Source: a virus
Length of the DNA: 64,000 bases
Reading direction: 5' to 3' (one strand)
Virus record (IMG/VR): IMGVR_UViG_3300030390_001134
Coordinates: 1-64,000 of that record
The translations under genes and the position numbers were made by a program. Under the pieces are notes generated by a model. It did not search any database. It saw only the letters and a list, made by a program, of their open reading frames with translations, and had not been told where the DNA came from. Below are positions 14,520 through 53,207 of this stretch, one piece after another (the first letter of the stretch is position 1; each line of letters begins with the position of its first letter).

Positions 14520-14739
14520 AGAGTTAATCAAAGTGGCTAAAGAAGCTATCGTTGATTCAGGTGATGATATTACCGCGGACAGACTCAAGAACGCTGCTGC
14601 TACAAAAAAGCTTGCTATCTTCGACGCCTTTGAGATATTGACCAGAATCCAAGAAGAAGAAAACTTGCTTGAGGGCAGAGAGCCTGAAGAAAAGAAAGCA
14701 AACGTCTTCAAGGGTTTTGCTGAAGGAAGATCTAAGTAA
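14464..14739 (+). CDS. Possible small terminase subunit
   Basis: The 91-aa product is all helical (start MNIKETKKSIIQAGQIAVEE) and directly precedes the large terminase, sharing one base of its start codon. It overlaps the end of the GroES-like gene by 56 bp in another frame. Position and helical composition suggest the small terminase or a packaging accessory, but no helix-turn-helix is evident and it is short for a TerS. Confidence 0.4.
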   Translation: MNIKETKKSIIQAGQIAVEELIKVAKEAIVDSGDDITADRLKNAAATKKLAIFDAFEILTRIQEEENLLEGREPEEKKANVFKGFAEGRSK

Positions 14740-16952
14740 TGTACGAACAGACATTATTAAAAATAATAGAGCCTATAAAAAAAACCACTCTTACCAGGTT
14801 AAACAGGGGTAAGAAGTGGAAGTATGGTTACGATAAAGATCACGATATAGTGGTTTTGTCTAGAACCGGTGTTATAGGTGAGATATACGAAATACAAGGT
14901 TTTAAGATTGCTCTACCTAAACCCACTAATGTTTTCAAGCACGAAAGCAACAAGTGGAAAAAAGTAGATCAACCCAAAGAACTTAGCCGCATAAAAACTA
15001 TATTTGACTGGAGAAGTTATCCAGACGAACAAAAAGAAAAGTGGCACGGGTATATCGACGAAGAGTTCAGGCGCAGAGACGAAGGGCATTGGTTTATGAA
15101 TGATGGTAAACCAACGTATATAACTGGTAGTCACTATATGTACCTGCAATGGAGTAAAATTGACGTGGGTGCACCAGACTTTAGAGAGGCCAATCGGCTG
15201 TTCTTTATATTCTGGGAAGCCTGCAAGGCAGATAAGAGATGCTATGGAATGTGCTACCTTAAGAACCGTCGTTCAGGTTTTTCTTTTATGTCCTCTGCAG
15301 AAACAGTTAACTTAGCCACTATATCGAGTGATAGTAGATATGGGATCTTGTCTAAGTCTGGTGCCGATGCGAAGAAAATGTTTACAGATAAAGTGGTACC
15401 TATATCAATTAATTACCCTTTCTTCTTTAAACCTATACAGGATGGTATGGATCGTCCGAAGTCTGAGTTAGCATACCGAGTACCTTCTACTAAGTTTACT
15501 CGTAAAAAAATTCAGAGTAATGAAAAGCTAGAGGAGCTTGCTGGTCTTGATACAACTATAGACTGGAAGAATACAGGTGACAACAGTTATGACGGTGAAA
15601 AGTTAAACCTGTTAGTGCACGATGAGAGTGGTAAGTGGGAGAGACCTGACAACATACTAAACAACTGGCGAGTTACAAAGACTTGCTTAAGACTTGGAAG
15701 TAGAATCGTAGGGAAATGCCTTATGGGATCTACTTCAAACGCGTTAGATAAAGGAGGTAGTAATTTTAAAAAGTTATATAATGACTCAGATGTTTCTAGG
15801 AGAAACCGCAATGGACAAACAAAGTCTGGCTTGTATTCTCTCTTTGTCCCTATGGAATGGAACTATGAAGGATTTATTGACGAATTCGGATTTCCAGTCT
15901 TTGATAATCCACGTGATGGAGAACGACTGGGACCAGACGGTGAACTGATAGATATAGGCGTTGTAGACAGTTGGGAGAATGAAGTAGATGGTCTTAAGGA
16001 AGATCAAGATGCTTTGAATGAGTTTTACCGACAGTTTCCTAGGACTACGGAACACGCTTTCAGAGATGAGAGCAAAAGCAGTATCTTTAACCTAATGAAG
16101 ATATATGAGCAGATAGACTACAACGAAGGAAGTAGACATGCTGCTCACACCACAACAGGTAGTTTTGGTTGGGTTAATGGAATTAAGGATTCAAAGGTAA
16201 TATTTCACCCAGATCCAGGAGGTAGATTTAAAGTAAGCTGGGTACCACCAGCGCACTTGCAGAATAAACAAATAATAAAGAATGGTGTTAAGTTCCCAGG
16301 CAATGATCATATTGGCGCGTTCGGCTGTGACAGTTATGATATTAGCGGTACTGTTGATGGCAAAGGGTCGAAAGGCGCGCTCCACGGACTAACAAAGTTT
16401 TCTATGGAAGATGCTCCTTCGAGCACATTTTTCTTAGAGTATATAGCAAGACCACAAACCGCAGAGATATTTTTTGAAGACATGCTTATGGCACTCGTGT
16501 TTTACGGGATGCCCATACTAGCAGAGAACAATAAACCAAGGTTATTGTACTACTTGCGCCGAAGAGGTTATAGAGGGTACAGCATGAATAGACCAGATAG
16601 AACTTGGAAGAAGTTATCAGTTGCTGAAAAAGAAGTAGGTGGTATACCAAACTCAAGTGAAGATATTAAACAAGCCCATGCTTCAGCTATTGAGATGTAC
16701 ATACAAGAACATGTGGGTCATTTAGGTGAGGGCAATTACGGAACAGTGTACTTTAACGAGCTACTTAACGACTGGGCTAGGTTCAATATAAATAACCGAA
16801 CTAAACACGACGCCTCTATAAGTTCTGGCCTAGCTATCATGGCCTGCAATAGACACCTATATGCACCAAACGCCAAAGTTGAAAGACAACCTTTAAACTT
16901 AAGTGTATCAAAATATAACAATAAGGGCTTTAACTCCCAGATAATTAAATAA
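14739..16952 (+). CDS. terL: Terminase large subunit
   Basis: The 737-aa product is the DNA-packaging motor and nuclease. A Walker A variant LKNRRSGFS lies at residues 174-182 and the Walker B LLVHDE at 291-296, with E296 as catalytic Glu. The C-terminal RNase H-like nuclease starts at FGCDSYD with D531 and D534 as likely metal ligands. Both length and the RRSGFS variant fit the large terminases of crAss-like and related Bacteroidota phages. The portal gene follows after 2 bp. The motor docks on the portal and cuts the concatemer. Confidence 0.9.
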   Translation: MYEQTLLKIIEPIKKTTLTRLNRGKKWKYGYDKDHDIVVLSRTGVIGEIYEIQGFKIALPKPTNVFKHESNKWKKVDQPKELSRIKTIFDWRSYPDEQKEKWHGYIDEEFRRRDEGHWFMNDGKPTYITGSHYMYLQWSKIDVGAPDFREANRLFFIFWEACKADKRCYGMCYLKNRRSGFSFMSSAETVNLATISSDSRYGILSKSGADAKKMFTDKVVPISINYPFFFKPIQDGMDRPKSELAYRVPSTKFTRKKIQSNEKLEELAGLDTTIDWKNTGDNSYDGEKLNLLVHDESGKWERPDNILNNWRVTKTCLRLGSRIVGKCLMGSTSNALDKGGSNFKKLYNDSDVSRRNRNGQTKSGLYSLFVPMEWNYEGFIDEFGFPVFDNPRDGERLGPDGELIDIGVVDSWENEVDGLKEDQDALNEFYRQFPRTTEHAFRDESKSSIFNLMKIYEQIDYNEGSRHAAHTTTGSFGWVNGIKDSKVIFHPDPGGRFKVSWVPPAHLQNKQIIKNGVKFPGNDHIGAFGCDSYDISGTVDGKGSKGALHGLTKFSMEDAPSSTFFLEYIARPQTAEIFFEDMLMALVFYGMPILAENNKPRLLYYLRRRGYRGYSMNRPDRTWKKLSVAEKEVGGIPNSSEDIKQAHASAIEMYIQEHVGHLGEGNYGTVYFNELLNDWARFNINNRTKHDASISSGLAIMACNRHLYAPNAKVERQPLNLSVSKYNNKGFNSQIIK

Positions 16953-16954
16953 GC

Positions 16955-19327
16955 ATGGCTGAGTCAGTATATGTAAACTTTCCTTCTCAAGCGGTTCCTG
17001 ACCTAGAGAAAATGAGTACCGAATATGGTCTCAAGGTGGCACAAGCTATAGAGCAGGAGTGGTTCAAGGATTCACATAGTAATAGGTACAACGTAACTCA
17101 ACAGAAGTTCCACAACCTAAGACTATATGCCAGAGGAGAGCAATCCATACAGAAGTACAAAGATGAGTTGTCTATCAACGGCGATTTATCATATCTTAAC
17201 TTAGACTGGAAGCCAGTTCCTATTATACCAAAGTTTGTAGATATTGTAGTGAATGGTATGGCTGAGAGAATGTTCACGGTAAAAGCTTATTCACAAGATC
17301 AGTATGGCGTAAGTAAGAGAACTGAGTACATGGAGTCAATGATGAGGGATATGGACGCTAAGGTATACAATGACCAAGCTGCGGAGATGTTCAGTGTTGA
17401 TCTCTATGAAAACAAAAAAGAAGAGCTACCAGACACGCAGGAAGAGTTAGACTTACACATGCAGCTTAACTACAAGCAAGCTGTAGAGATAGCCGAAGAG
17501 CAAGCTATAAACGTACTCTTGGATGGCAATAAATATGATCTAATAAGACGTAGGCTTCTTTATGATTTAACAGTGCTAGGCATTGGCTGTGTGAAAACAG
17601 GGTTTAACTGGAGCGATGGAGCCACCGTGCAATATGTGGATCCAGCAAGCATTGTCTACTCTTATACTGACTCTCCTTATTTTGACGATATATACTATAT
17701 AGGAGAGGTTAAAACAATTCCAATTAACGAACTTGCTAGGGAGTTCGACCACTTAACCGAGTCTGATCTTAAGGACATACACTCTAGCTCTGGACAAAGG
17801 AATATACGTGGGAGAAGAATCAACGAGACAGATAAAAACAAAGTCCAAGTCTTATACTTTAACTACAGAACATACACTAACGATGTCTACAAAGTTAAAG
17901 AAACAGGTTCTGGTGGAGAGAAAGCTATAGAGAAATCAGACGTATTTAATCCACCTGAGAATAAGGAAGGTGGTTACTCAAGACTACAGAGGTCTGTGGA
18001 GTGTATATTTGAAGGCGCTATAATTCTTGGTACAGACAAACTCATCAAGTGGCAAAAAGCTGAGAATATGATGCGTAGCAAGAGTGATTTTAACAAAGTT
18101 AAAATGAACTACTCTTTAGTTGCGCCAAGGATGTACGAAGGACGTATTGAGTCTATCGTAAGTAGAATTACTGGTTTTGCTGATACTATTCAATTGACTC
18201 ACCTTAAATTACAGCAGGTCTTATCTCGCATGGTACCCGATGGAGTATACCTTGATGCAGACGGACTTGCTGAAATAGATTTAGGTAACGGCACTAATTA
18301 CAACCCACAGGAAGCACTTAATATGTTTTTCCAAACAGGTTCTGTTATAGGTAGAAGTCTAACCGCTGACGGCGACCCTAATCCAGGCAAGATACCTATT
18401 CAACAGATATCAAATGGAGCTGGGCAGAACAAAATGGGTAGTTTAATCCAGACTTACAATTACTATCTTCAAATGATACGTGATGTAACGGGGTTGAACG
18501 AAGCTAGGGACGGTAGCACGCCAGACCCTAATGCGCTGGTGGGCGTGCAAAAGCTCGCTGCTGCCAACTCCAACGTAGCTACCAGACATATACTTTTATC
18601 TTCGATGTTCTTGACGTCTGAAGTTGCTGAGGCTCTTTCTTTACGTATATCAGATATATTAGAGTACTCTCCAACTGCTGAAGCTTTTGTTCAGTCTATA
18701 GGCTCTCATAATGTAGCTACACTAAAAGAGATGTCAGAGCTACATCTTTATGATTTTGGTATATTCTTAGAGCTAGAGCCTGATGAAGAGGAAAAGCAAA
18801 TGCTAGAGAATAATATCCAAACGGCATTGTCTCAGAAGTTAATAGATTTAGATGATGCTATAGACATTAGAGAGGTTAGGAACTTGAAGTTAGCAAATCA
18901 GTTGCTAAAGATAAAACGTAAGAAGAAACAAGAACGTGACCAGCAAATCCAACAGCAAAACATTCAAGCGCAAGCACAGGCAAATGCGCAAGCTCAACAA
19001 GCCTCAGCTCAGTCTGAGATACAAAAAAATCAGGCAAAAGCTCAAACCGACACACAATTAGAGCAAATGAAAGCTCAAAGCAAACTAACTCATCTTCAAG
19101 AAGAGGTTAGATTAAAGAAAGAGTTGATGCAGTTTGAGTTTGACTTAAACCAGAGCCTACGTGACCAAGAGAGAGAGTCTACAGAGAAGTTGGAGGGTAT
19201 GAAAGAAGCCGGTAAAGATAAACGAGAAAATGTCAAAGCAGGTGCTAAAAAGTTTGAGTCTTCAGGTAATGATATACTAGGAGGCGGATTGGGTTTAGAT
19301 AAGTTCAACCCACAAATTGGTAATTAA
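16955..19327 (+). CDS. Portal protein
   Basis: The 790-aa product lies between terminase and scaffold, where the portal is expected, and is the dodecameric channel for DNA entry. It is rich in helix and contains the portal-like segment RDVTGLNEARDGSTPDPNAL near residue 510. Residues 640-770 form a Gln/Ala/Lys-rich coiled coil (KNQAKAQTDTQLEQMKAQSK). A long C-terminal helix is typical of portal barrels of podoviruses. Length agrees with crAss-like portals. Called mainly by position and composition. Confidence 0.8.
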   Translation: MAESVYVNFPSQAVPDLEKMSTEYGLKVAQAIEQEWFKDSHSNRYNVTQQKFHNLRLYARGEQSIQKYKDELSINGDLSYLNLDWKPVPIIPKFVDIVVNGMAERMFTVKAYSQDQYGVSKRTEYMESMMRDMDAKVYNDQAAEMFSVDLYENKKEELPDTQEELDLHMQLNYKQAVEIAEEQAINVLLDGNKYDLIRRRLLYDLTVLGIGCVKTGFNWSDGATVQYVDPASIVYSYTDSPYFDDIYYIGEVKTIPINELAREFDHLTESDLKDIHSSSGQRNIRGRRINETDKNKVQVLYFNYRTYTNDVYKVKETGSGGEKAIEKSDVFNPPENKEGGYSRLQRSVECIFEGAIILGTDKLIKWQKAENMMRSKSDFNKVKMNYSLVAPRMYEGRIESIVSRITGFADTIQLTHLKLQQVLSRMVPDGVYLDADGLAEIDLGNGTNYNPQEALNMFFQTGSVIGRSLTADGDPNPGKIPIQQISNGAGQNKMGSLIQTYNYYLQMIRDVTGLNEARDGSTPDPNALVGVQKLAAANSNVATRHILLSSMFLTSEVAEALSLRISDILEYSPTAEAFVQSIGSHNVATLKEMSELHLYDFGIFLELEPDEEEKQMLENNIQTALSQKLIDLDDAIDIREVRNLKLANQLLKIKRKKKQERDQQIQQQNIQAQAQANAQAQQASAQSEIQKNQAKAQTDTQLEQMKAQSKLTHLQEEVRLKKELMQFEFDLNQSLRDQERESTEKLEGMKEAGKDKRENVKAGAKKFESSGNDILGGGLGLDKFNPQIGN

Positions 19328-20521: not shown

Positions 20522-21955
20522 ATGGCTATAACAGGCGTAACAGCGGGAAGTTTAACTCCCGCACCAAGAAAACAAACGCTTATTTCCGCGTATATCGACT
20601 TTGCTACGGCGGGTAGTTCTGACGGATGGGCGCAACAATATTTACCAGACCTTATGGAAAAAGAGGCTGAGATTTTTGGAAACAGAACTATCTCAGGATT
20701 CCTTTCTCAAGTAGGGGCTGAAGAGTCTATGACAGCTGACCAAGTAGTTTGGTCTGAGCAAGGTCGACTACATTTGTCTTATAAGAATTGCACGTCTGTA
20801 ACAGCTACTGGTGTAATAACTATTGGTGATGAAATGGACGGTACTGCATCAGTAAGTACGCATGCTATTAGAGCAGGTGACATGGTGTTGGTTACCGACG
20901 GTAGCGCAACTGCTCAGTGCTTTGTTACAGTTGCTGTACCTGGCTCTGACACAATTACTGTAAAACCTTACAAATTTGCTAATCTAGCTGCTGCGGGTAT
21001 CGCGGATGGTACAGACAAAAGCGTTTTGGTTTACGGTTCTGAGTTTGTAAAAGGAGCAGTAGGACGAGTTGGAGCTAACGCACCGGCTTTCAAGTCTTAC
21101 ACTAACAAGCCGATCATCCTAAAGGACAAGTACGAGATCTCTGGATCTGACGCTTCTCAAATTGGTTGGGTTGAAGTTTCTGGAGAAGAAGGACAGAATG
21201 GTTACCTATGGTATTTAAAAGCCGAAGGTGATACACGTGCTCGTTTCACAGATTACTTAGAGATGGCTATGATTGAGTCAGTTAAAATGACTAACGCTGT
21301 TACTTCTGCAATTGATGGAGCTGCCGGTGCAATCACTGGTACTGAGGGTTTATTCTCTGCTATTGAAACGCGAGGAAATCAATCTTCTGGTATCACAGGC
21401 GTTAACGCTGCTACTGACCTAGCTGAGTTTGATGCTATCTTAGCTGAGTTCGATAAGAACGGTTCTATTGAAGAGAATATGATGTTTGTAAATAGAGCAA
21501 CAGCTCTAGCTATGGATGACATGCTTGCTTCTATGAATTCTTACGGTGCTGGAGGTACTTCTTATGGAGTATTTGAAAACAACGAAGATATGGCTCTTAA
21601 CTTAGGATTCTCTGGATTCCGTCGTGGATCTTACGATTTCTATAAGTCAGATTGGAAGTACTTAAATGATGTGGCTACTAGAGGCGGTTTAACTGACACA
21701 GTTAACGCTATCCGTGGAGTTATGATCCCAGCTGGAGTTTCTTCGGTATACGATCAAAACCTAGGTAAGAATCTTAAGCGTCCTTTCCTACACACACGTT
21801 ACCGCGCTTCTGCTACAGACAACCGTAAGATGAAGACATGGACCACTGGTTCTGTTGGAGCTACAACTTCTGACTTAGATGCTATGGAGGTGCACTACCT
21901 ATCTGAGCGTTGCTTAGTGGTACAAGGTGCTAACAACTTCATGTTGTTGAACTAA
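20522..21955 (+). CDS. Major capsid protein
   Basis: The 477-aa product follows the scaffold and precedes a strong terminator, both usual for a capsid gene. An N-terminal arm (LISAYIDFATAGSSDGWAQQ) leads to mixed alpha/beta sequence with a helix at EGDTRARFTDYLEMAMIESV that fits the HK97 spine helix. Codon use is enriched in preferred codons compared with neighbours, consistent with high expression. Called by position and fold pattern, not by search. Confidence 0.82.
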   Translation: MAITGVTAGSLTPAPRKQTLISAYIDFATAGSSDGWAQQYLPDLMEKEAEIFGNRTISGFLSQVGAEESMTADQVVWSEQGRLHLSYKNCTSVTATGVITIGDEMDGTASVSTHAIRAGDMVLVTDGSATAQCFVTVAVPGSDTITVKPYKFANLAAAGIADGTDKSVLVYGSEFVKGAVGRVGANAPAFKSYTNKPIILKDKYEISGSDASQIGWVEVSGEEGQNGYLWYLKAEGDTRARFTDYLEMAMIESVKMTNAVTSAIDGAAGAITGTEGLFSAIETRGNQSSGITGVNAATDLAEFDAILAEFDKNGSIEENMMFVNRATALAMDDMLASMNSYGAGGTSYGVFENNEDMALNLGFSGFRRGSYDFYKSDWKYLNDVATRGGLTDTVNAIRGVMIPAGVSSVYDQNLGKNLKRPFLHTRYRASATDNRKMKTWTTGSVGATTSDLDAMEVHYLSERCLVVQGANNFMLLN

Positions 21956-40900: not shown

Positions 40901-43900
40901 ACGATACAGACTTTAACAGAGTTAAATTCTTAGACCAAGTAGATATTAACTCAACTGTTAGGGCGGATGGAAAGAGCTTCATAGAGGTTCTTGCTGAAGT
41001 TGAAATAGCTAAAGAGGTTTCAAAGATGAACCTAGCTATAGATCAAAGAAACGAGAGCACTAAGCTTATGGACCAAGCTATTAAAGCATCTCGCTCTAGC
41101 ACTAAGCCTAAAGGTATAACAGTGTTAGACTTTGATGACACGTTGGCTACAACTAAGTCTAATGTTATAGTCACACCTCCAGACCCCGCAACTATCCCTG
41201 GTAAACGCCGCACAAAGAAAAGCAAAATCTCCGATGAGTATGCGGTGACTCCGGGCAAGGATAAGTTTTATAAGAGTGATTCTTATTTAGACCCAGCTCC
41301 TGTAGATCCTGCCCCAGCACCTGGTTCAAGAGAACTAAAGGATATAATAGGCAAGGACCTATCAGTAGGTGGGACTTTTTATGCCGCTAAACCTTTTAAA
41401 CTGAGTGCTGAAGAGTTTGCTAAGCACGGTAGCGAGTTGCTAGCGCAAGGGTATAAGTTTGATTTTTCTGAATTCAACAAGGTTGTTGACGGCAAGACGG
41501 CGCCATTATTTAACAAAGCTATGAAGCTTTCTGGAAAGTTCGGAACAGAGAACATGTTTATCCTTACAGCTAGAGCGCCTCAATCAGCAAAAGCTATTAA
41601 ACAGTTTTTAGATGCGCAAGGTTTAAAGATACCTCTTAAAAATATTACAGGTCTAGGTAAGTCAGAAGCTTCGGCTAAAGCTAACTGGATAGCGGAGAAA
41701 GTGGGTGAGGGTTACAATGACTTTTACTTTGCTGACGACGCTATGCAAAACGTCAAGGCGGTTAAGGATATGCTTGATCAGTTTGATGTAAAAGGTAAAG
41801 TTCAACAAGCGAGATTAAAGTTTAGTAATTCTGGCCCTAAGAAGATGTCTGATATAATAGACGAAAGTCAATTAGACCTTAATAAGATACTAGAGGAAAC
41901 TAAAGGTGTAGGTAAAGACAAAAGATTCTCAGCTGCAAAAGCTAGGCAGCGTGGTAAGAACAAAGGTAAGTTTAAGTTCTTTGTTCCACCTTCAGCAGAT
42001 GACTTTGCTGGGTTGATGTATTCGTTTATGGGTAGAGGTAAGCAAGGTAATAAGCACCACGCGTGGTTTAAGGAAAACCTATTCGACCCGTTCTCAAAAG
42101 GCATGAGACGCCACAAGATGGTTCAGCAGCAGGTGGCCAATGATATGAAAAACCTTAGAAAGGCTATGCCTGACGTAAGGAAGAAGCTAGGTAAAAAAGT
42201 ACCTGGCACAGAGTACACACACGAGGATGCTATAAGAATATACAACTGGAGCCAAGCGGGTCTTGATATACCTGGGTTATCTCAAGCTGACGCTACAGCT
42301 TTGATAAACGCGATTGAGTCTGATCCTAAGCTTCAAGCATTTGCACAAGGTGTTAATTCTATAAGTGAAACTCCGGGTGGCATGGTAGAACCTGGTCCTC
42401 ACTGGACAGGAGGTAATATAGCTTTAGATTTAAAAGAAGCGTTAGACAACGCTAGGGGTAATAACCTTAGGCAATGGGTGGAGAATAAAAATATTATATT
42501 CTCTGAAGCTAACATGAATAAGATAGAAGCTTTGTATGGCTCTAACTTTAGAGAAGCGTTAGAAGACAGTCTATACCGTATGGAAACTGGTAGCACGCAG
42601 AACGTGGGTAAAGATAGGTTGTTAAATAACTTTACAGCTTGGATACACGGTTCTATAGGTACTACTATGTTCTTGAATGCTAGGTCAGCCATGTTGCAGA
42701 TGATCTCTAATGTTAACTTTGTTAACTGGAGTGATAACAATATGCTTAAAGCTGCTGGTGCATTTGCTAATCAAAAGCAGTATTGGAAAGACGTGTCTAT
42801 GATATTCAACTCTCCTTTCTTAAAGCAAAGAAGATCTGGTATTCAGACAGATGTTAACGCAGCTGAGCTTCTAGCTCAAATCAAGGATTCTAAAAACAAA
42901 ATGAAAGCAGCTGTAGCTTACTTGCTACAACTTGGTTTTACCCCTACACAGATTGCGGATAGTTTAGCCATCGCAACAGGTGGCGCTACGTTTTACAGGA
43001 ACAGAATTAAGACATACCTAAAAGATGGTATGTCCCAGGTTGATGCTGAAACAAAAGCCTTTGAGGATATGATGGAGATAGCGGAGGAAACTCAGCAATC
43101 CACTAGAGCAGATAAAATATCTCAGCAGCAAGCTTCTCCTATTGGTAAGTTTATACTAGCTTTCCAGAATACACCTATGCAGTATAACAGGTTGATTAAA
43201 AAAGCGGCGCAAGATCTAGTCAATGGTAGGGGTGACGTAAAAGCTAACGTATCTAGGATTGTTTACTACGGTGGTATTCAAAACTTAATATTCTATGGGT
43301 TGCAAACCGCGTTGTTTGCAGCTTTATTCAGCGATGACGAAGAGGACGAAATAACGGCTAAAAAAACAGAAAGAGTCATGAACGGCATGGTTGATACCTT
43401 GCTACGTGGCTCAGGCATCGCTGGCGCCGCTGTGTCAACTGTTAAAAATGTTATTCTAAAGTTCATGAAGGAGAGCGAAAAGATGAATGACGATAAGTAC
43501 TATACGGATCCTGACTGGGGCAATGTAGTTATAGAGGGTCTTAATATATCTCCGCCTATAGGTATTAAGGCTAGAAAAATTTATAGCGGCCTTAAAACAT
43601 GGGAGTACAATAAAGATGTCATAGATCACATGAGTAAGACAGATCTAGATAATCCTATATACGATGCTATTTCTAGTGTAACAGAGGCAGCAACTAACGT
43701 GCCTTTAAGTAGAGCTTACAGTAAGTATCAAAACATATCAGAGGCACTGAACGCAGAGCATGAGGCGTGGAAAAGAATAGCTATGCTATTGGGTTGGAAC
43801 AAATGGAGTTTTGGAATTAAAAACCAAGATGTAGTTACAGCTAAAAGCGAGGTTAAAGAAATAAAAGCTGAAGAGGCTGAGGAGAGAAAGGAGATGAAGA

Positions 43901-44199
43901 AGCTTGCCAAAGAAGTTGAAAAGCAAGCTGAAAACGAGGTTATTGAAGAAGACAACTTGTTAGATCAGCGAGAAGAAAGAGAGCAAAGTCAAGAAGATAT
44001 AAAATGTGCGGCGGTTACCAGCTCAGGAAAGCGCTGTGGTAAGAAAGTTAAAGGTGACGGAAACTACTGTACTATACACGAAACCGTTGAGGCAAGAAAG
44101 GATGGTAAAAAAATACAGTGCGCTCACATTAAGCCAGATGGTAAAAGGTGTAAAATGAAAACAACAAATAAATCAGGTAAATGCTACTATCACGATTAA
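34990..44199 (+). CDS. Giant multidomain internal virion protein (HExxH, HAD, zinc tail)
   Basis: The 3069-aa product takes the place of T7 gp16-type ejection proteins. A probable zinc metallopeptidase site VGSHELLHGIL lies near residue 1054. A HAD phosphatase is visible from 2047: LDFDDTLA (motif I), ILTARAP (about 2190) and FADDAMQ (about 2246). The order is that of polynucleotide 3'-phosphatase-type HADs. Several Ala/Gly-rich segments (about 575-700) could enter membranes. The last 65 residues carry two C-C-C-H repeats (RCGKK...YCTIH and QCAHIKPDGKRCK...CYYH). The next gene starts 19 bp inside its end. Confidence 0.75.
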   Translation: MNGQQQGYPEELQIVVDKMKANREPQFNIDIMVQSYYASKQDAGSGPEPTPVAGQQEVEENVGIPKESSIDQEWWDNAGLDRSSYFDEQGNMLPPPSVLTTVDPGWDQIRLEEENAIKAQAALESAESYDSTDISEGEGDSEYSTQSIVEDSVATEEQRKENIEKASADYQEFIDASFAYNSITDEDKAREADLVSKWEKDGLAMVMGEIPTINYFGLGSGNMLTVDNYVAYKRRRARNPESMDFDPTLPSYIEVKHNEYESNPTFRDAKINIAKSEYAKKAGLSESETKKLLKANIDPANAESMEPFSTFDEDGNVVSFENEYKNIDPNQSGRILSDGSKLGDKLRKGVEDKLTAQNDAESQRANVKKFVEALPSYSKTSATGAVVKAATGLDLGLFLKSDAQKLIEKRAKEDFKLLESNVQKIASEADVVGSQIKNNGALLTKAHEDLKALGDVRAKINELKNGEYTTEAQVKNANQKISALVNDYTAKFNAFDKYRKANSTLNNAAARIGAEIKDLDVKVKDLGAFTEFIGDNHQIGTQMAWSAANAAIDLGQGFMDFAYMANPFGALSDELIDWAGEDSLAASIVEGVRIAAAPMTGGLSLYSGDRRDDMRDAIDNFQENVSSKIEQPPAFSSIKDVGSFAEWAAVTGIAQAPQLALMYASGGTSGLLLMGAGAAGTKYNEMEENRETYRESGGLYGIDHSFASMLAVSTFTGAVEALSEKVTLGQLNAAGRTLKNEVFKASGRRGIAKYLRNDVFTKDSFRSTLRGGKDLFEEGGSEFLATVGGNALTIASGDKSVGLWDGGLESFVTGAMISSTIKTPSLFRSAVAPFQSKTTSEILNNNLDIIERNRAVASGETGASADAVQFAQDIIAEAVHENKLALELDIKRVDAYEDADKSRLINIESDNIDLRRKATAIVQDETLDESQKKEMINDLQTKLDNNIAEKQAIIEKYPEDVVNKKYSETSLGRQPASQTFEENIEFAKKHSALYGLEVNDTMSPAEIEAYLLKKGYSEKDAKDGRKSDGFIVGDDIIINREVAMAKNAVTVGSHELLHGILRKAMGDKALSTQVISQLKKSIGSQWSVVQQRIDENYTPEYMALNPDEYLTLVSDAIAKGEITYQETVFDKLRDSLNEIPIFKKYFPNIKFKTGRDVYRFLREYNKSIHKGALATDIVKATQTDEDVERTEDQVKKDGIKKSLTSDQKKAAAKNVKELGAKETNKSWRRGGADAAIKDIKDNGYFDALIASKYKVKPVPRDFVEKVYSEITPHIKRFKPEQNDNLFAYINSQIGNKAGNVYNKEYKVDEAMRGSKDIDAKTSEGAPVIQVAAETDTDVTSFEEQDMSMQAQAKRTKLAEQGKSESDRYSGLRTELGLEKPMMDKVRQAVMKTFGTKLPDVNSKKFKAALQKAYRTELKKPIQDMIGKGATYETFLAENFPTVFKFLPKETLLQMERNVAPENRIFTKSERITKPTEVDKLISDGLLPKETNRLSGPTLITKLPYPGSKKVMAYFRGQNMDNALGYKVGASTLGTRKDKLAMEMGVELGFDATMETVQQPEVAERRESILELTGQVQAENDVSVMAKQIDRDPNIKFSNTSNKSPSDIFADQTMSLVKDVVNNGFETVFTEDGKLVEGYPGDFSKKAVDFAYNLWDDGTLHDGKSIGFKAKVALSESFSNEIKETYKSDGNLRNNEAALDRLYEAVSVLTTKLGPEVMDAIGFEIAGFKNRVMDSPKLKRDGTPGRFYERLQKLSKRVRESVGASLPFGLDLKGVSIMNKNAGAKSIFGKVQKILNEDITRDAKLVKLAELQPEIDAANEANIKLAKHISTVLINGVRDGSIDQVSALHLLQAQTGIVNGFRGLSRLDLITVLDGSQKPGETHPHYKRIYRELSKTMPKDQAKIEAIKRTGTKGEHLAPNSNTMFEIAELFNSSETATELENKLTNIFRGHSQMHTTIDLTKVMDKKGGETNDTDFNRVKFLDQVDINSTVRADGKSFIEVLAEVEIAKEVSKMNLAIDQRNESTKLMDQAIKASRSSTKPKGITVLDFDDTLATTKSNVIVTPPDPATIPGKRRTKKSKISDEYAVTPGKDKFYKSDSYLDPAPVDPAPAPGSRELKDIIGKDLSVGGTFYAAKPFKLSAEEFAKHGSELLAQGYKFDFSEFNKVVDGKTAPLFNKAMKLSGKFGTENMFILTARAPQSAKAIKQFLDAQGLKIPLKNITGLGKSEASAKANWIAEKVGEGYNDFYFADDAMQNVKAVKDMLDQFDVKGKVQQARLKFSNSGPKKMSDIIDESQLDLNKILEETKGVGKDKRFSAAKARQRGKNKGKFKFFVPPSADDFAGLMYSFMGRGKQGNKHHAWFKENLFDPFSKGMRRHKMVQQQVANDMKNLRKAMPDVRKKLGKKVPGTEYTHEDAIRIYNWSQAGLDIPGLSQADATALINAIESDPKLQAFAQGVNSISETPGGMVEPGPHWTGGNIALDLKEALDNARGNNLRQWVENKNIIFSEANMNKIEALYGSNFREALEDSLYRMETGSTQNVGKDRLLNNFTAWIHGSIGTTMFLNARSAMLQMISNVNFVNWSDNNMLKAAGAFANQKQYWKDVSMIFNSPFLKQRRSGIQTDVNAAELLAQIKDSKNKMKAAVAYLLQLGFTPTQIADSLAIATGGATFYRNRIKTYLKDGMSQVDAETKAFEDMMEIAEETQQSTRADKISQQQASPIGKFILAFQNTPMQYNRLIKKAAQDLVNGRGDVKANVSRIVYYGGIQNLIFYGLQTALFAALFSDDEEDEITAKKTERVMNGMVDTLLRGSGIAGAAVSTVKNVILKFMKESEKMNDDKYYTDPDWGNVVIEGLNISPPIGIKARKIYSGLKTWEYNKDVIDHMSKTDLDNPIYDAISSVTEAATNVPLSRAYSKYQNISEALNAEHEAWKRIAMLLGWNKWSFGIKNQDVVTAKSEVKEIKAEEAEERKEMKKLAKEVEKQAENEVIEEDNLLDQREEREQSQEDIKCAAVTSSGKRCGKKVKGDGNYCTIHETVEARKDGKKIQCAHIKPDGKRCKMKTTNKSGKCYYHD

Positions 44200-45224
44200 C
44201 ATTAATAACAGCAATGATGCTGTCCTGTTTAATATGCTCAGGACAAGGTTTAAAAAAAGCGTTTAAGTTCTCTACGTTTTACACTGCTGTTAACGGAGGC
44301 AACTCTGTTGCTGATCAAACAGTGTGGTCTGTGGGTAATGGTTTAAACTTTACTAACATAGAAACTCCTTACGACTACAGTCTTACAATGGGTGTTCGTA
44401 AAATAGCTAGGTTTGGATACGAGAACAGAGCACAAACCTTCTATGATGGAAGTGAAACATCATGGGCAGACGGAGCTAATGTAGGTAAACGTAATGGCTT
44501 AGAGTTTTTAGCTGAGGTTAAATACAAAAGACAAATGGGTCAAGAGTTTCTTGATCAAAACCATTTCCTAAGATATGTAGGGGATAAGTACATTGTTAAA
44601 GGAGAATATCTACAAGATGGCTTTGCAGATATATCTTACTTTGAGATCTCACAGAGATACAGGCAGAAGATAGGTGAGAAGTTTTCTTTTAATATAGGTA
44701 TAGCTCAAAGAGCTTCTGAGCCGTATGGTTACAACCCGCTAGCTGAGTGGTCATTGAATAACAATGATATACACTACACATACTTAGCTTTACAAGAGGG
44801 TTACACAGTGGACGTACCTAACAACGAATACTTTTCTCCTGATGGAGAAAGCGTAGCTACAAGTACAGAGGTGTGGGAGGCGGTTGTTATACCTGAGGTT
44901 ATATCTGACTATGTAGACAGGAAAAGATCAGGGCTAGACAAACTGATACAACACTCTGTCATAGCTGGGTTTGACTACTACCACTACACAGATGACTTTT
45001 GGTTGCACGCTTGGGGTAACGTTATGCCCTACCATTTAGACAGCGGAAATGAATTTATGTATCACAACTCTGTAGGTGGGCAATGGCTTGATTATTCAGG
45101 TGGGGCAATAGTTGGGTACAGGTATAATAAACATTTAGGATTATTCTTAGAAGGTAAATATAACAAGTACTGGAATAGAGAGTGGTACAACTTTAAGTGT
45201 GGTGTAAATTATGTAATCTTTTAA
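44181..45224 (+). CDS. Exported outer-membrane beta-barrel-like protein
   Basis: The 347-aa product has a signal peptide (MLLSRLTLITAMMLSCLICS, cleavage probably before GQG). It then has many alternating polar/hydrophobic strands with aromatic ends (FSFNIGIAQ, SVIAGFDYYHY, GAIVGYRYNKHLGLFLEGKY). It ends in YVIF, the terminal Phe seen in outer-membrane barrels. It overlaps the giant gene by 19 bp. A phage barrel could mask or replace the receptor, causing superinfection exclusion, or help lysis. No homologous host gene is identified. Confidence 0.6.
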   Translation: MLLSRLTLITAMMLSCLICSGQGLKKAFKFSTFYTAVNGGNSVADQTVWSVGNGLNFTNIETPYDYSLTMGVRKIARFGYENRAQTFYDGSETSWADGANVGKRNGLEFLAEVKYKRQMGQEFLDQNHFLRYVGDKYIVKGEYLQDGFADISYFEISQRYRQKIGEKFSFNIGIAQRASEPYGYNPLAEWSLNNNDIHYTYLALQEGYTVDVPNNEYFSPDGESVATSTEVWEAVVIPEVISDYVDRKRSGLDKLIQHSVIAGFDYYHYTDDFWLHAWGNVMPYHLDSGNEFMYHNSVGGQWLDYSGGAIVGYRYNKHLGLFLEGKYNKYWNREWYNFKCGVNYVIF

Positions 45225-45227
45225 GAT

Positions 45228-45509
45228 ATGGCTAAAGATGGATACGAAGGACCTCTAAAAATTACAGAGGAAGCTTACGCAAGGCGTAACAGAAAAATGA
45301 GAAAGGATAATCCTGGTATGGCTAGCAGAAAAACTAGTGGTACTCATCCTGATAGAGTTAAGTTTGCCTGTAGGTTTGGAGCTCAAAACCACCCTATGAA
45401 AACCGCTAAAGGAGAGCCGACTCCTTACGCTATGGCATTAAAAAAATGGGGTTTTGGTAGCGCGCAAGCTGCTAAAAACTTTTGCAAAAAACATAAAAAG
45501 AAAAAGTAA
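45228..45509 (+). CDS. Small basic late protein
   Basis: The 93-aa product contains FACRFGAQNHPMKTAKGEPT and ALKKWGFGSAQAAKNFCKKH. I associate this pattern with a widespread small DUF family of phages and large viruses, function unknown. It is strongly basic and helical at the C-terminus. The start of the next gene overlaps its stop. Confidence 0.6.
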   Translation: MAKDGYEGPLKITEEAYARRNRKMRKDNPGMASRKTSGTHPDRVKFACRFGAQNHPMKTAKGEPTPYAMALKKWGFGSAQAAKNFCKKHKKKK

Positions 45510-45775
45510 TGGCTTTTAAAATGAAAGGTATTCCACACTTTACTAAAAATAAAGAGGAGTGGAAAGGAGCAACGCATAAAATGGATGACGGATCGTTGCA
45601 CACGGGAAAGACTCATAACAAGGACAGTAAAAAGCTCTTTCACAAAGGTGATTCCGCTTTAAGAAAACGAGGTCTATGGGACAACATACATGCTAAAAGA
45701 AAACGCGGTGGTAAAATGCGTAAAAAAGGAGATCCAGGAGCTCCAACAGAAAAAGCAATAAGAGACTCTCAATAA
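45509..45775 (+). CDS. MAFK-type small basic protein 4
   Basis: The 88-aa product begins MAFKMKGIPHFTKNKEEWKG. The last half has GLWDNIHAKRKRGGKMRKKG and GDPGAPTEKAIRDSQ, a pattern I associate with small basic virion proteins of viruses with large genomes. With its neighbour at 45228 it forms a pair of Lys-rich proteins, perhaps packaged. Confidence 0.6.
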   Translation: MAFKMKGIPHFTKNKEEWKGATHKMDDGSLHTGKTHNKDSKKLFHKGDSALRKRGLWDNIHAKRKRGGKMRKKGDPGAPTEKAIRDSQ

Positions 45776-45782
45776 ATAAAAC

Positions 45783-46067
45783 ATGGCAAAGCAAATAAGT
45801 GAGGACACTAAGGTAACATTAGACCTCAAGACGATTGGAATAGCGGGTGCAGGGTTAGCTGCTTTAATAGGGATGTGGTTTGCATTACAAGCTGATATAG
45901 CTCTGGCTAAAGAATTACCTGAGCCTACACCACCAGAAATTTCACGTATGGAATTTGATATGAAGGATAAGCTAGTGCGCCAAACTATTATGACAACTCA
46001 AGAAGACGTTAAGGAATTGAAAGATGACTTAGATCGCATTGAAGAGAAAATAGACAAACTAAAATAA
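45783..46067 (+). CDS. Membrane-anchored coiled-coil protein (spanin- or holin-like)
   Basis: The 94-aa product has one membrane span (IGIAGAGLAALIGMWFALQA, about residues 18-37), a Pro-rich link (LPEPTPPEISR) and a C-terminal coiled coil (ETVKELKDD-like, residues 70-94). This is the topology of Rz-type inner-membrane spanins. I recall near-identical proteins in marine phage contigs. No outer-membrane partner lies inside it; the lipoprotein-like export genes nearby could serve. Confidence 0.5.
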   Translation: MAKQISEDTKVTLDLKTIGIAGAGLAALIGMWFALQADIALAKELPEPTPPEISRMEFDMKDKLVRQTIMTTQEDVKELKDDLDRIEEKIDKLK

Positions 46068-46073
46068 AATATT

Positions 46074-46448
46074 ATGAGACTTAAAATAGGCTTCAAGACG
46101 GCTTTGCAGGTGTATCTTATATTGTTTTTAGCTGCGATGTTCTTTGCTAGCAGTGCTAAAGCACAGAACCCTTGCAACAGTGATATATGTGTAGTACAGT
46201 TTAACGCTAGTTGGAACGGATCTAATAGTGTAGAATACCTAGATAAATTGACTGAGTGTAACGTAATGAACGTTAGTATCGACGAAGGCACGTGGCAGAA
46301 AGACTTTGGTATTGTTGTTGTACCTACTATTATAGTTTTTAACGGCAAGGAAGTCGAAAGGTTTCAAGCTAACATCATGATGCAGATGGAGGCTACAAAG
46401 AAAGATATACAAGGCGTTATAGACGAAATTATATATAGCGATTTTTAA
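46074..46448 (+). CDS. Exported thioredoxin-fold protein without CxxC
   Basis: The 124-aa product has a signal peptide of about 31 aa ending AKAQ, then a thioredoxin-like core. CVVQFNASWNGSNSVEYLDK stands where thioredoxins have VDFWAxWCGPC, and IVVVPTIIVFNGKEVERFQA supplies the cis-Pro and last strands. The active-site Cys pair is replaced (WNGSNS), so it cannot act as an oxidoreductase. Two Cys in the mature N-terminus (PCNSDIC) may form a structural disulfide. Probably a periplasmic binding partner or inhibitor. Confidence 0.65.
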   Translation: MRLKIGFKTALQVYLILFLAAMFFASSAKAQNPCNSDICVVQFNASWNGSNSVEYLDKLTECNVMNVSIDEGTWQKDFGIVVVPTIIVFNGKEVERFQANIMMQMEATKKDIQGVIDEIIYSDF

Positions 46449-46449
46449 C

Positions 46450-48588
46450 ATGAAGAGTTTTTTATTATGTTTATTTTTAATACCACTAACGTTTCTAACT
46501 CAAGAGAGTTGGGTTAACGTAGTTGTACAAACAGATCAGTATGGAGGTGAGACGACTTGGGAGATATATCAAGATAGTCAACTAGTAGCGGTATCACCGC
46601 CTTACCAAAACAATTCTTACAACGAAACCTTAGTTGAGTTACCCGTTGGGCAATACAACTTAGTTGTGTACGACGCTTTTGGTGATGGTATATGCTGTGA
46701 CTTTGGACCTGGTTATTTTGGTTTAACAAACTCTTGTGGATTAGATACGTTTGTATATGACTTTAACACTCCGCAGGCTACTGTATTTTTTGAGCTAACA
46801 GAATGTGAGCAACCTGTATATGGGTGTTTACAGCCTAACGCTTTAAACTACAATCCATGGGCTAACACCCCAACGCCGTGTAACTTTCCGCCAATGCCAT
46901 GTGGTGAGGGTCAGACAAACATACTTTCGTTTTTCACACCTGATAGTTACCCAGCAGAAACAAGTTGGGAGATAACTGTTAACGGTGACTCGCTAACGTC
47001 TGGTGGTGGTGGTACAACTGGTATAACTGAACCCACGTATCACTGCGTGAACGAGGGTGATACAGTTGTAGCTAGTATATACGATTTATATGGAGATGGT
47101 ATGTGTGGTACTTGTTGGGGTGGAGTAGATGGGTTTTTTAACGTAACAACACTATGTGGGGATAGTATATTTATGGCTGGTGGTACAATGGAGTTTGATA
47201 CATTATACTCAGAGCCCTATGTAGTACAACCTTGTGCGCCCGCGTTCTTAACAGGATGTACAGATAGTTTGTTTGTAGAGTATAGCCCTAATGCACAGGT
47301 TAACGATGGAAGTTGTGTGACTGAGATAGCTTTAGGTTGTATACAAGAAGATGCTCTAAACTACGATCCACTAGCTAACACTATGGAAACAGAAAGCATG
47401 TGTAGTTATGATCTCGTTATAACAGATGGCGGGGCTGACGGGTGGTTTGGTAGTTGGCTAGGGTTTACACAAGGTGGTAACTTGTATGGTCCATATCAAA
47501 TGGGACCTGACGACGGGTATGAAGAAACGTTTGAGGTAGCTTTAAACTCTAATGAAGAGGTTAAGGTTTACTTCTTTACAGAAGGTAACGCGGAAACTAC
47601 AGCTGCTCAGTGTGGGTTTAGATTAGAAGGTCCTAACGGTATTATAGCTCAGAGTGGAACTAACCCTTGGACAGATAGGTTGAAAAAATTTCCGTTCTCT
47701 TACAGTGCTACGCCTACATGTTCTAACTACTGCATTGCTCCGGTACTTGGTTGTGTTGACGTTGAAGCTTGTAACTTTGATACCTTAGCAAACGTAGACC
47801 ACGGATGTGTCTACCCTATAGAATACTACGACTGTGATAACCTGTGTAACAGTGATATAGATAACGACGGTGTGTGTGACGAGCTAGAGATAGTGGGTTG
47901 CATGGATCAAACCGCTTTTAATTATAATGAGTTAGCTACAGATCCAGCTGACTGTGAACCACTAATATTCGGATGTACAGATGCCACGCAGTATAACTAT
48001 AACCCAGAAGCTAACACGGACAACGGTAGCTGTATTCCTTACATTGACGGTTGTACTGATAGCAATGCCTTTAATTATGATCCGCTGGCTACTGCTGACA
48101 ACGGCTCGTGTATTGAAATCGTGGAAGGGTGTGCCGATCTTCAAGCGTACAACTACGAAGTCCTAGTTAATATACCAGACCCAGAGTCTTGTTTATACGA
48201 AGCTGTAGGTTGTGTCACCGGTTTAGGTGAGCCATATGGAGATGGTTATTGGCTCAACGATATGTGCTTCGCTTGGTTGATTCAAGCTGACCCATATTGC
48301 TGCGAAGAGGAGTGGGATAACACATGTCAAGAGACATTTGATTACTGCTCCGCTACTGGTATAGAAGCTATACTAGCTAGAGATGATTTAGTGATGTACC
48401 CTAACCCAGTTGGTAACGTACTTAACATAAATAAAAACGTTGATCTAGACGTGTTCGATTCTGCAGGACGTGTTATCGTATCTAAAACAAATATAAACGC
48501 GATAGACGCATCTCTATGGGATCCAGGGATGTACACAGTGCGGATTGTTTGGAACAACCGAATTGTAATCAAAAAGATTATTAAATAA
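46450..48588 (+). CDS. Secreted Cys-repeat protein with T9SS type A sorting domain
   Basis: The 712-aa product has a signal peptide (about 18 aa), beta domains, and at least eight Cys repeats of the form GCxDxxAxNYNPxAxxxxGSC (for example GCTDATQYNYNPEANTDNGS). The last 65 residues match the type A T9SS sorting domain: MYPNPVGNVLNI, FDSAGRVIVS, DASLWDPGMYTVRI and KKIIK. Type IX secretion would export it through the host outer membrane and remove the tail. It opens the tail-fibre block. It could be a released factor, a surface shield or a virion part; transfer from the host is likely. Confidence 0.8.
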   Translation: MKSFLLCLFLIPLTFLTQESWVNVVVQTDQYGGETTWEIYQDSQLVAVSPPYQNNSYNETLVELPVGQYNLVVYDAFGDGICCDFGPGYFGLTNSCGLDTFVYDFNTPQATVFFELTECEQPVYGCLQPNALNYNPWANTPTPCNFPPMPCGEGQTNILSFFTPDSYPAETSWEITVNGDSLTSGGGGTTGITEPTYHCVNEGDTVVASIYDLYGDGMCGTCWGGVDGFFNVTTLCGDSIFMAGGTMEFDTLYSEPYVVQPCAPAFLTGCTDSLFVEYSPNAQVNDGSCVTEIALGCIQEDALNYDPLANTMETESMCSYDLVITDGGADGWFGSWLGFTQGGNLYGPYQMGPDDGYEETFEVALNSNEEVKVYFFTEGNAETTAAQCGFRLEGPNGIIAQSGTNPWTDRLKKFPFSYSATPTCSNYCIAPVLGCVDVEACNFDTLANVDHGCVYPIEYYDCDNLCNSDIDNDGVCDELEIVGCMDQTAFNYNELATDPADCEPLIFGCTDATQYNYNPEANTDNGSCIPYIDGCTDSNAFNYDPLATADNGSCIEIVEGCADLQAYNYEVLVNIPDPESCLYEAVGCVTGLGEPYGDGYWLNDMCFAWLIQADPYCCEEEWDNTCQETFDYCSATGIEAILARDDLVMYPNPVGNVLNINKNVDLDVFDSAGRVIVSKTNINAIDASLWDPGMYTVRIVWNNRIVIKKIIK

Positions 48589-50753: not shown

Positions 50754-51050
50754 ATGGAATACGGATTACACCATATAACGTCAGCAACAACAACCACGTT
50801 GATACCTATACATGGATCAGGTGGAGCTATTAAATCGATAAGTATAGCCAACCAGCACGACACAACTGCAGCGCATGTAGACTTATATTTAGATGACGGT
50901 ACAAATACATCGTATATAGTAAAAAGCGCCTTGATATATTCTGGAACTGCCATGGTTTTAGATCACAACATATCTTTTGACAATTCAGTACTAGGATTAA
51001 AACTAACCACTGTTGGAAGTGGTTTACCTATATCAGTAATTATAAAATAA
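50754..51050 (+). CDS. Small fibre-tip-like protein
   Basis: The 98-aa product is one beta domain with IKSISIANQHDTTAAHVDLY followed by LDDGTNT. The same pattern closes the 2643-aa tail protein, so this may be the free version of a tail-end domain. No enzyme motif. Confidence 0.55.
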   Translation: MEYGLHHITSATTTTLIPIHGSGGAIKSISIANQHDTTAAHVDLYLDDGTNTSYIVKSALIYSGTAMVLDHNISFDNSVLGLKLTTVGSGLPISVIIK

Positions 51051-51655
51051 TGTACACAAGAGAACAAATTAAAGAGGCTTTAGAAGCTAAAGGTTATAAG
51101 TTTTTTGAAGAAGGAGACTACAACGTGAATATCGTTGGAATAAGAAACTCTGAAACAGAAGGCAAAGTCACAAACAGATTCGATGACTTAATGACGGTGT
51201 CGTACAAGATCGACGGAGAGTGGCAGTATCACGAGTTTGATTGCACTACAGACCCAGGCACTCATTGGGTTGACAATTGCGCTTACTCTAAAAAAGGGGT
51301 GGCTATACTTAGGCCTGATCAATACCGCAAGTCACACAAAATTAGAAAGCACCTAGGGCAATACGAAGCTTTAGGACAGCAAAATCCTGTTACAGTGTAT
51401 AGAGATCCAAATAAGGATGCGGTGTATGACCTTAACGAAGACACCACTCAAACAGGTTTGTTTGGTATTAACATTCACAGGGCTTCAAAATACGCGGGTA
51501 AGAAATCCACCCGAATAAACAAGTGGTCTGCTGGTTGTCAAGTGATTGCAGCTAATGATGATTGGACTAAATTTATGAAGATCATGAGAAAAGCTAGACT
51601 TATCTGGAGCAACAACTTTACATACACTTTAATAAATTCTAAAGATATTACATGA
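51050..51655 (+). CDS. L,D-transpeptidase-like lysis enzyme candidate
   Basis: The 201-aa product contains LFGINIHRASKYAGKK and INKWSAGCQVI (about residues 138-165). This is close to the YkuD site, an upstream His and then S-x-G-C with catalytic Cys. No signal peptide. In phages such folds act as peptidoglycan hydrolases. It is TGA/ATG-coupled to the exported gene after it, and is the only candidate endolysin in the window. Confidence 0.6.
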   Translation: MYTREQIKEALEAKGYKFFEEGDYNVNIVGIRNSETEGKVTNRFDDLMTVSYKIDGEWQYHEFDCTTDPGTHWVDNCAYSKKGVAILRPDQYRKSHKIRKHLGQYEALGQQNPVTVYRDPNKDAVYDLNEDTTQTGLFGINIHRASKYAGKKSTRINKWSAGCQVIAANDDWTKFMKIMRKARLIWSNNFTYTLINSKDIT

Positions 51656-52011
51656 AGTACATATTCGCATTAATATTATCAATGACTTTTACTGGTTTAT
51701 TCAGCCAGTGTAACCAACACGTATTCACCTCAGTAGGTGCCACAGAGTGGACGAGCTTTGAATACGTAGATTGTGATGGAGAAGATCACGCTTTTGGTTT
51801 ACCTGCAGGAGGATATACTATAATATTCTGCGCAGACATAGGTACAGCTTTTGCTTTAAACGGAGATGGGTTTGTATATCCATTAATGACAGAGCATCCT
51901 AACTACGCATCATGTGCGCAACCTGTTTGTCAGGGGGACTTCGATGAGGATGGTGTAGTGGGAGTAAGCGATTTACAAGTGTTTTTATCAAACTACGGAG
52001 CATGCGATTAA
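51652..52011 (+). CDS. Exported protein with dockerin-like calcium loop
   Basis: The 119-aa product has a signal peptide (MKYIFALILSMTFTGLFSQ), a small Cys-containing beta domain and a C-terminal dockerin/EF-hand-like loop, GDFDEDGVVGVSDLQVFLSN, with Asp at the calcium positions. Such a motif is common near the C-terminus of secreted Bacteroidota proteins. It overlaps both neighbours, which also look exported or lytic. Role unknown; surface attachment is possible. Confidence 0.6.
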   Translation: MKYIFALILSMTFTGLFSQCNQHVFTSVGATEWTSFEYVDCDGEDHAFGLPAGGYTIIFCADIGTAFALNGDGFVYPLMTEHPNYASCAQPVCQGDFDEDGVVGVSDLQVFLSNYGACD

Positions 52012-53207
52012 ATTTACTTGGCATACTATGGATCTTATATAGTATATTTATATTCAACAATAGCGCCTATGGCCAATGTGATGTGGCTATAAGTAACTGG
52101 GATGCGCTGACGGGTGATATTCTTGTTGAAGCGATTAACAGTGAGAATTGTGGCTGCAATGAATTTACAACTGAAGGCAACACATGTGAAAGTAGCGCTA
52201 GTTCTCATGTAAATAATAACGAAACGGTATCTCATATAGTTTTAGGGCTGCACGTGGAGGGGTTGGATTATAACTGGATGGATTGTTTAACAGGTGTTAA
52301 TCATCCAGGTTGGACGTTTAAAGTTTTTACTCTTTATGGTAATCAAACTCTTAGCAATGGTGATACTTGGGGTGCTAATGTTTATGATACAGGGGCAAGT
52401 ACAAATGATTGTTGGGCAGAACTATTATCTAACGATACGCTATGTACTGAGTTAGTTGTGTGGCAGATTAATTTATCTCGCACAGCTTTTATAGCTGACG
52501 GAGGTTGGGCGCTGAATCCAGGGTTTAACCAAACGCAGAACTACCCTGACGTTGATCTTTCTAATAACACAGCCGTTAACTGTGCTCTACCTACGTGCGA
52601 CCCTGTTTACATATACGAAACCGACACGATAGTGTTATATGATACTATCATAGAATATGTCACAGACACTGTTATTGAATACGTGGACGTTGAGTGGATA
52701 ACAACCGATACGCTGTATATAACTGAAGTTGACACGTTAATTGAATATGTCCAATTACCTACAGATACTGTACATGAGTATATAACTGACACTATTACGT
52801 TAGTAGAAACTGAGTATGTTGATGTTATAGTAGATAACTACGTTTATATTACTGACACTATAATAGAGTTTGTAGCTAGCACTGTTTATATCGACTGTGA
52901 AACAGGAGAGGAGTGTGGCACCTCAAGCCCTTGTGACGAGACTTCTATATACGCGCCTAATGTTGTCACGCCTAACGATGACGGGTGGAACGACACGTGG
53001 CAGGTAATTGCTGACGGAGCTTGTTGGGCTCAGTGGGAGGTAAGAGTGTACAATAGATGGGGTGGGCTAGTTTGGATCAGCGCGTCTAACATAGACGCGT
53101 GGGAAGCTAATGTAGCTACAGGTGTTTATGTATATACAATAACAGCGCACAGCGCGGTAAATACAAGTGTATTTGAATTTAACGGTACACTAACAGTACT
53201 ATATTAA
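52002..53207 (+). CDS. Secreted protein with T9SS type B (gliding-type) sorting domain
   Basis: The 401-aa product has a signal peptide (about 25 aa, ending AYGQ), a Cys-containing N-terminal domain, then about 90 residues of degenerate repeats (DTI-x-EYVTDTVIEYVD in form) likely to make a beta stalk. The end is a type B T9SS sorting domain: APNVVTPNDDGWNDTW, VRVYNRWGGLVW, and GVYVYTITA before a closing GTLTVLY. This domain directs T9SS export and surface retention without cleavage of the type A kind. It sits just before the tailspike. Confidence 0.8.
   Translation: MRLNLLGILWILYSIFIFNNSAYGQCDVAISNWDALTGDILVEAINSENCGCNEFTTEGNTCESSASSHVNNNETVSHIVLGLHVEGLDYNWMDCLTGVNHPGWTFKVFTLYGNQTLSNGDTWGANVYDTGASTNDCWAELLSNDTLCTELVVWQINLSRTAFIADGGWALNPGFNQTQNYPDVDLSNNTAVNCALPTCDPVYIYETDTIVLYDTIIEYVTDTVIEYVDVEWITTDTLYITEVDTLIEYVQLPTDTVHEYITDTITLVETEYVDVIVDNYVYITDTIIEFVASTVYIDCETGEECGTSSPCDETSIYAPNVVTPNDDGWNDTWQVIADGACWAQWEVRVYNRWGGLVWISASNIDAWEANVATGVYVYTITAHSAVNTSVFEFNGTLTVLY

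Follow-up and report, generated by a model that had tools for sequence, protein, structure and literature searches.

Phage genomes encode a predicted T9SS type A cargo protein with an exchangeable sorting tail beside genes for three predicted envelope proteins

Proteins with T9SS sorting domains have been reported from phages before. Cryophage (Bellas et al. 2020, Nat Commun, PMC7468147) encodes type A cargo, comprising an endoglucanase, GH39 and a PA14 protein that lie in variable islands and were described as a unique occurrence, and hijacking of the host system was already proposed for it. In the crAss-BACON phages (2019, Viruses, PMC6949934), proteins with T9SS sorting domains are encoded near the head genes of Bacteroidota phages, and one BACON ORF carries such a domain. 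Among the Bacteroidota themselves, type A cargo such as NucA and RemZ of F. johnsoniae has a C-terminal sorting domain (CTD) in which a near-invariant, functional lysine close to the C-terminus contacts PorV (PMC10994853), and type B cargo is encoded near outer-membrane barrels, the PorP/SprF-like shuttles (PMC12618676, PMC9143113). Given the two phage precedents, use of T9SS by phages is not new, and the preliminary description of the locus examined here went too far in calling the export of a phage protein by this route a new strategy. What does appear to be new is the combination described below of a conserved module with swappable tails; among open-licence papers, we found no description of either the conserved module or the tail exchange. 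A Tenacibaculum phage paper that mentions T9SS was set aside as a precedent, as T9SS there concerns the host only.

The DNA analyzed here (the window; 64,000 nucleotides) is nearly all of the 64,166-base IMG/VR record IMGVR_UViG_3300030390_001134. On its plus strand are genes for a terminase large subunit (14739..16952; phrog_6681, E 8e-166; 45% identical to those of Flavobacterium elemoviruses), a portal protein (16955..19327; phrog_6547, E 1.4e-140), and a virion structural protein that is probably the major capsid protein (20522..21955; phrog_13704, E 2e-100). By terminase and portal, the closest annotated relatives are the metagenomic podovirus genome MW202828 and phages of Flavobacterium, Cellulophaga, Tenacibaculum, and Maribacter. 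T9SS is used by the phylum Bacteroidota, to which all the named hosts of these nearest phages belong. GroEL (7161-8729; phrog_5725, E 6.7e-133), ribonucleotide reductase, MazG, and a primase-helicase are also encoded in the window, and groEL is found as well in a Flavobacterium elemovirus and in a Manatee Spring podovirus genome. A late protein of 3069 residues (34990-44199), which has no Pfam match, shows by eye an HExxH-like motif (HELLH), a HAD-like DxDxT stretch, and two C-terminal Cys/His zinc-finger-like repeats.

The plus-strand gene at 46450..48588 encodes a 712-residue protein, here named T9A. Residues 649-712, the extreme C-terminus (48394..48585), match TIGR04183 with an E-value of 5.3e-11 and a score of 42.3 bits (cut-off 23), and residues 649-711 match PF18962 with 39 bits (cut-off 27); the match to a sorting domain is thus far above chance. 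The N-terminus is hydrophobic and forms a predicted Sec signal peptide (residues 1-17, 46450..46500; MKSFLLCLFLIPLTFLT, followed by Q), for which AF2 models a helix at residues 2-14, and the glutamine at +1, Gln18, is invariant across the 36 rows of the family alignment, consistent with the signal peptide Q-rule of Bacteroidota (PMC10653852). Between signal peptide and CTD, the region 46822..48192 contains eight repeats of the type GCxDxxAxNYxxxAxxxxxxC with invariant cysteine columns, three among the N-terminal domains and five near-tandem (residues about 125-144, 269-289, 296-318, 434-453, 483-502, 508-528, 534-554, and 560-581). Repeats of this sort are commonly seen in surface proteins with a structural or adhesive role, and no catalytic or enzyme domain was recognized in T9A. 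The preliminary description had read the type A domain at the end of the ORF, the signal peptide, and the eight repeats from the letters of this one gene and had proposed comparing the last residues with TIGR04183 and Pfam; all three features stand, the sorting domain being significant in both comparisons, and the observation was even understated, since the window and its relatives hold a type B domain, upstream envelope genes, and a large viral family besides.

The AF2 model of T9A consists of three β-sandwich domains, the Cys-repeat stretch, and a well-predicted CTD with a core pLDDT of about 80-85. When the whole protein was searched with Foldseek, no meaningful match was obtained apart from the CTD, which matched the CTD of NucA in complex with the T9SS translocon of F. 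johnsoniae (8glk_D) with a probability of 1.00, a TM-score of 0.73 of the target, and 32% identity, and the mirolase CTD (8qb1_A) with a TM-score of 0.61. Close to the C-terminus, K709 is present in at least 90% of the rows of a second family alignment, in which K712 is invariant; these are putative counterparts of the PorV-contacting lysine, with only approximate residue equivalence to RemZ Lys1110. T9A thereby resembles the type A cargo of Bacteroidota (NucA, RemZ; PMC10994853) in its Sec signal peptide, CTD β-sandwich, and C-terminal lysine. Unlike that cargo, T9A is phage-encoded, is linked to phage late genes, and in its full-length form was not found in bacterial genomes.

The family to which T9A belongs is predominantly viral. 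A scan with an alignment of ten relatives as the query identified T9A relatives on at least 158 IMG/VR viral contigs of up to 297 kb, of which 80 were kept, whereas a scan through the genomes of 84,980 species of bacteria and archaea gave two weak partial matches, both in Saprospiraceae MAGs; because the peptide patterns differed between the scans, this contrast should be read as indicative rather than exact. Taken singly, the Cys repeats, the N-terminal sandwich, and the CTD are each found in Bacteroidota proteins, and with the full-length relatives being viral, T9A looks like a viral family built from domains of host surface proteins. TIGR04183 was matched in 35 of 36 full-length relatives, and the body of the protein is under strong purifying selection (dN about 0.02-0.08 at dS 0.15-2; dN/dS mostly below about 0.15). 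Isolated flavophages, where the preliminary description had suggested looking for the same domain, did not yield it: TIGR04183 has no match in four related isolates (elemoF 6-3D, phi40:1, Gundel_1, and phi19:3) or in the metagenomic genome MW202828, only repeat matches to T9A were obtained in 50,697 phage records, and the module described next occurs in no cultured phage among those records.

Immediately upstream of T9A on the same strand lie the genes of three predicted envelope proteins that recur with it. OMP347 (44181..45224) has a signal peptide and a predicted 14-strand outer-membrane β-barrel; TMcc94 (45783..46067) has a predicted inner-membrane anchor followed by a coiled coil, as judged from its family alignment; and Trx124 (46074..46448) is a thioredoxin-like protein, predicted to be exported, that lacks CxxC. 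Two small basic proteins encoded within the module, also on the plus strand (45228..45509 and 45509..45775), proved less conserved when neighborhoods were compared. In iterative neighborhood searches of 83 loci found through the cargo, OMP347 was present in 73, TMcc94 in 69, and Trx124 in 68. To avoid circularity, a reciprocal search was started from the barrel, and in the best 80 of more than 550 loci found in this way the cargo was present in 70, TMcc94 in 74, and Trx124 in 72, with most absences of a partner falling at contig or fetch ends. Two gene orders are found: barrel, coiled coil, thioredoxin, and cargo, which is that of the window, and cargo, barrel, coiled coil, and thioredoxin, which often lies between the portal and capsid genes. 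As dozens of independent contigs show cargo and the same partners beside terminase, portal, and capsid genes, the assignment of T9A as a phage late gene, made beforehand from the window alone, is well founded. Counted with a simple custom pattern rather than SignalP, Q-rule signal peptides begin 65/65 OMP347 proteins, 70/83 cargo proteins, and 34/62 Trx124 proteins, compared to 23/711 other ORFs.

The AF2 model of OMP347 has 14 main strands with a pLDDT of 73.8, and Foldseek returned only outer-membrane barrels and barrels in general, which indicates no specific function. Profile comparison did not support its identification as PorP/SprF (TIGR03519; hhalign probability 16) or PorV (NF033710; 1.2), for which PorP against PorV, with 91, served as the yardstick, and no Pfam match to either was obtained. 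More than 550 viral relatives of OMP347 are among the matches listed; OMP347, TMcc94, and Trx124 have no match in the 50,697 phage records, and a search of 296 Bacteroidota genomes with OMP347 gave none either, a weak negative as that search had no positive control. PF00085 matches 23 of 31 members of the Trx124 family, in whose alignment CxxC is missing and FNASFN or WNGSN stands where WCxxC would be expected. The proximity of a cargo gene to an outer-membrane barrel gene resembles that of type B cargo and PorP/SprF-like shuttles (PMC12618676, PMC9143113) and suggests a cargo-anchor pair; unlike in those systems, the cargo beside the barrel is type A, and OMP347 is not detectably homologous to PorP/SprF or PorV. 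T9A also differs from the phage precedents: whereas Cryophage carries enzymes in variable islands, T9A is a conserved core gene with no recognized enzyme domain, sits in an envelope module of four genes that recurs in hundreds of viral contigs, belongs to a family with exchangeable tails, and is accompanied by a second cargo family, of type B. Our analysis detected no BACON domain, and the envelope module is not described for the crAss-BACON phages.

The tails of the family often have a history of their own. When 114 C-termini were compared, 80 matched TIGR04183, 33 ended in a shorter, host-like tail, and one had no tail, so that 113/114 keep a sorting-type tail. The short tail is of the ITDLLGRP...NKLLFYIYDDGTVEKK type and comprises 50 residues; in L171 (9248-11302), for example, it takes the form ITDLLGRPxxxxNKLLFYIYDDGTVEKK in place of a full type A CTD. 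TIGR04183 missed it in those contigs that were checked, as did PF18962 in L171, and a similar tail (54% identity over 37 residues) ends one secreted-looking Bacteroidota ORF. From its position, its exchange with the full tail, and this one similar Bacteroidota tail, the short form is probably a T9SS signal that current models do not cover. Exchange is evident in individual pairs: between L003 and L005, dS is 0.15 in the body and 1.08 in the CTD, and the bodies of L168 and L171 are 95.6% identical over 632 residues while their tail classes differ, with DNA similarity ending at about the start of the CTD. On the tree of the bodies (FastTree), at least 10 switches of tail class are needed. By these sequence comparisons, the T9A tail acts as an exchangeable cassette, and the history of the CTD often differs from that of the body. 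That the tail sequence is replaced and a sorting tail nevertheless kept indicates that selection maintains the sorting tail, which is the strongest, albeit indirect, evidence that export is the function.

Taken together, T9A is likely a late-made phage cargo of the host T9SS that works with the three co-encoded envelope proteins. Export through the host T9SS is the best-supported reading and is strongly suggested by a tail that persists, is replaced by other sorting tails, and matches a CTD of known structure in the translocon; the route, through Sec and then SprA/PorV, is inferred from the domains that T9A contains and from what is known of T9SS. T9A would be made late in infection, pass through the inner membrane via Sec, be cleaved just ahead of Gln18 to remove the signal peptide, and fold in the periplasm into a Cys-rich rod of β-sandwich domains and Cys repeats. 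The host SprA/PorV translocon would then recognize its type A CTD, and PorV would either release T9A or anchor it to surface lipopolysaccharide, so that the infected cell is probably made to display a viral protein on its own surface. TMcc94 may be the inner-membrane coiled-coil partner of T9A, Trx124 a redox-dead periplasmic partner, possibly a chaperone or adaptor, and OMP347 an outer-membrane barrel that could be its partner or anchor; the four proteins would place a phage product in every envelope layer during virion assembly. If T9A is cargo of this kind, our tentative choice for its use is late remodeling or coating of the surface that limits superinfection or keeps progeny from being lost to infected cells and debris. 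Whether the four genes constitute a previously undescribed phage envelope module, with a surface part that is delivered by T9SS and a tail that is swapped between phages to fit their hosts, and so a widespread late strategy by which Bacteroidota viruses take over the surface or breach the outer membrane, we regard as nearly an even matter.

The late position and the presence of one protein per envelope layer fit surface remodeling or lysis alike, and the main alternative, to which we give a lesser but real chance, is that the four genes encode a machine for lysis or egress that spans the envelope, in which TMcc94 would be holin- or inner-spanin-like, the barrel its outer partner, and the T9SS-exported rod a means to weaken or open the surface. 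An endolysin-like protein (51050..51655, plus strand; phrog_33083 endolysin, E 7.8e-11) is encoded 2.5 kb downstream of the cargo in the window, the module is kept across many phages, as would be expected of an essential function, and among the very weak matches of TMcc94 to PHROG, the best named one is an XhlA-type 'hemolysin' (E 0.05). However, no holin or spanin family was matched significantly, isolated relatives of these phages lack the module, and in many relatives it lies between portal and capsid genes and not beside an endolysin; this last point leads us to favor surface remodeling slightly over lysis. It is improbable that T9A is instead a virion fiber or decoration that uses its sorting domain to bind PorV or SprA during adsorption to the next host. 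T9A does sit among virion genes and adjoins fiber-like genes, and CTDs bind the translocon (PMC10994853), but virion proteins assembled in the cytoplasm have no need of the Sec export that the conserved Q-rule signal peptide implies, its linked partners are likewise exported or membrane proteins, and the strongly conserved body is unlike that of a receptor-binding protein in an arms race. Still less credible is a host surface-protein gene acquired as a moron and kept for the benefit of the host or for none: each T9A domain does occur in Bacteroidota proteins, but the preponderance of viral contigs over partial matches in species genomes, the fixed partners and order, and the purifying selection speak against it. 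An assembly artifact or a phage contig fused with host DNA, the contamination that the preliminary description had named as a refutation, has a negligible chance, since the record is a tailed-phage genome with phage genes on both sides of the cargo gene and the same gene and partners recur in dozens of independent contigs.

If T9A is exported as cargo, viruses that need the host T9SS would explain the importance of the secretion and gliding machine for infection, and such dependence would link the host range of phages to variants of PorV/SprA. With the module, named, testable genes become available for the almost unstudied late-infection surface effects of Bacteroidota phages, and its exchangeable tails offer a natural collection of T9SS signals that includes the short form.

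The window also encodes a second predicted cargo, T9B (52002..53207, plus strand), a protein of 401 residues with a Q-rule signal peptide and a type B (CHU_C) sorting domain (CTD 52953-53159) that matches PF13585 with 53.7 bits (cut-off 27) and TIGR04131 with 33.5 bits, just below the cut-off of 35. With type A and type B domains in T9A and T9B, respectively, the genome has both kinds of T9SS cargo, and as the families are separate, these represent two distinct viral families of such cargo. T9B has 88 viral relatives, whose genes often lie 1.3-1.9 kb upstream of the terminase gene, which falls within the fetched stretch at 30 of 80 T9B loci; a search of 247 Bacteroidota genomes gave no match to the T9B body, and no PorP-like neighbor of T9B is present within the window. 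Just before T9B, a 119-residue protein with a Q-rule signal peptide and an Asp-rich C-terminal repeat (51652..52011, plus strand) is predicted to be exported, and its homologue adjoins T9B also in L008 and L011. A third tail class for T9A, the cargo body with a type B tail (L286, L293, L295, L297, and L298), was considered and dropped because the common part is essentially the Cys repeats. Proteins with a type B T9SS tail are encoded on contigs classed as viral (L293:1035-3887, L295:2070-4976, and L297:89-2968), and these three contain an M43 metallopeptidase domain (PF05572, tested on L293). Two small minus-strand ORFs of the window (3385-3660 and 58849-59202) have Q-rule-like signal peptides and no Pfam match. 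A few genes upstream of T9B, L008 encodes a glycosyltransferase (326-1087; PF04488) that might modify surface sugars. On the 232-kb viral contig L012, an 801-residue TonB-dependent receptor (14701-17106; PF07715, 84 bits; PF00593, 81 bits) is encoded a few kilobases downstream of a T9SS cargo gene; a phage-encoded TonB receptor would be unusual.
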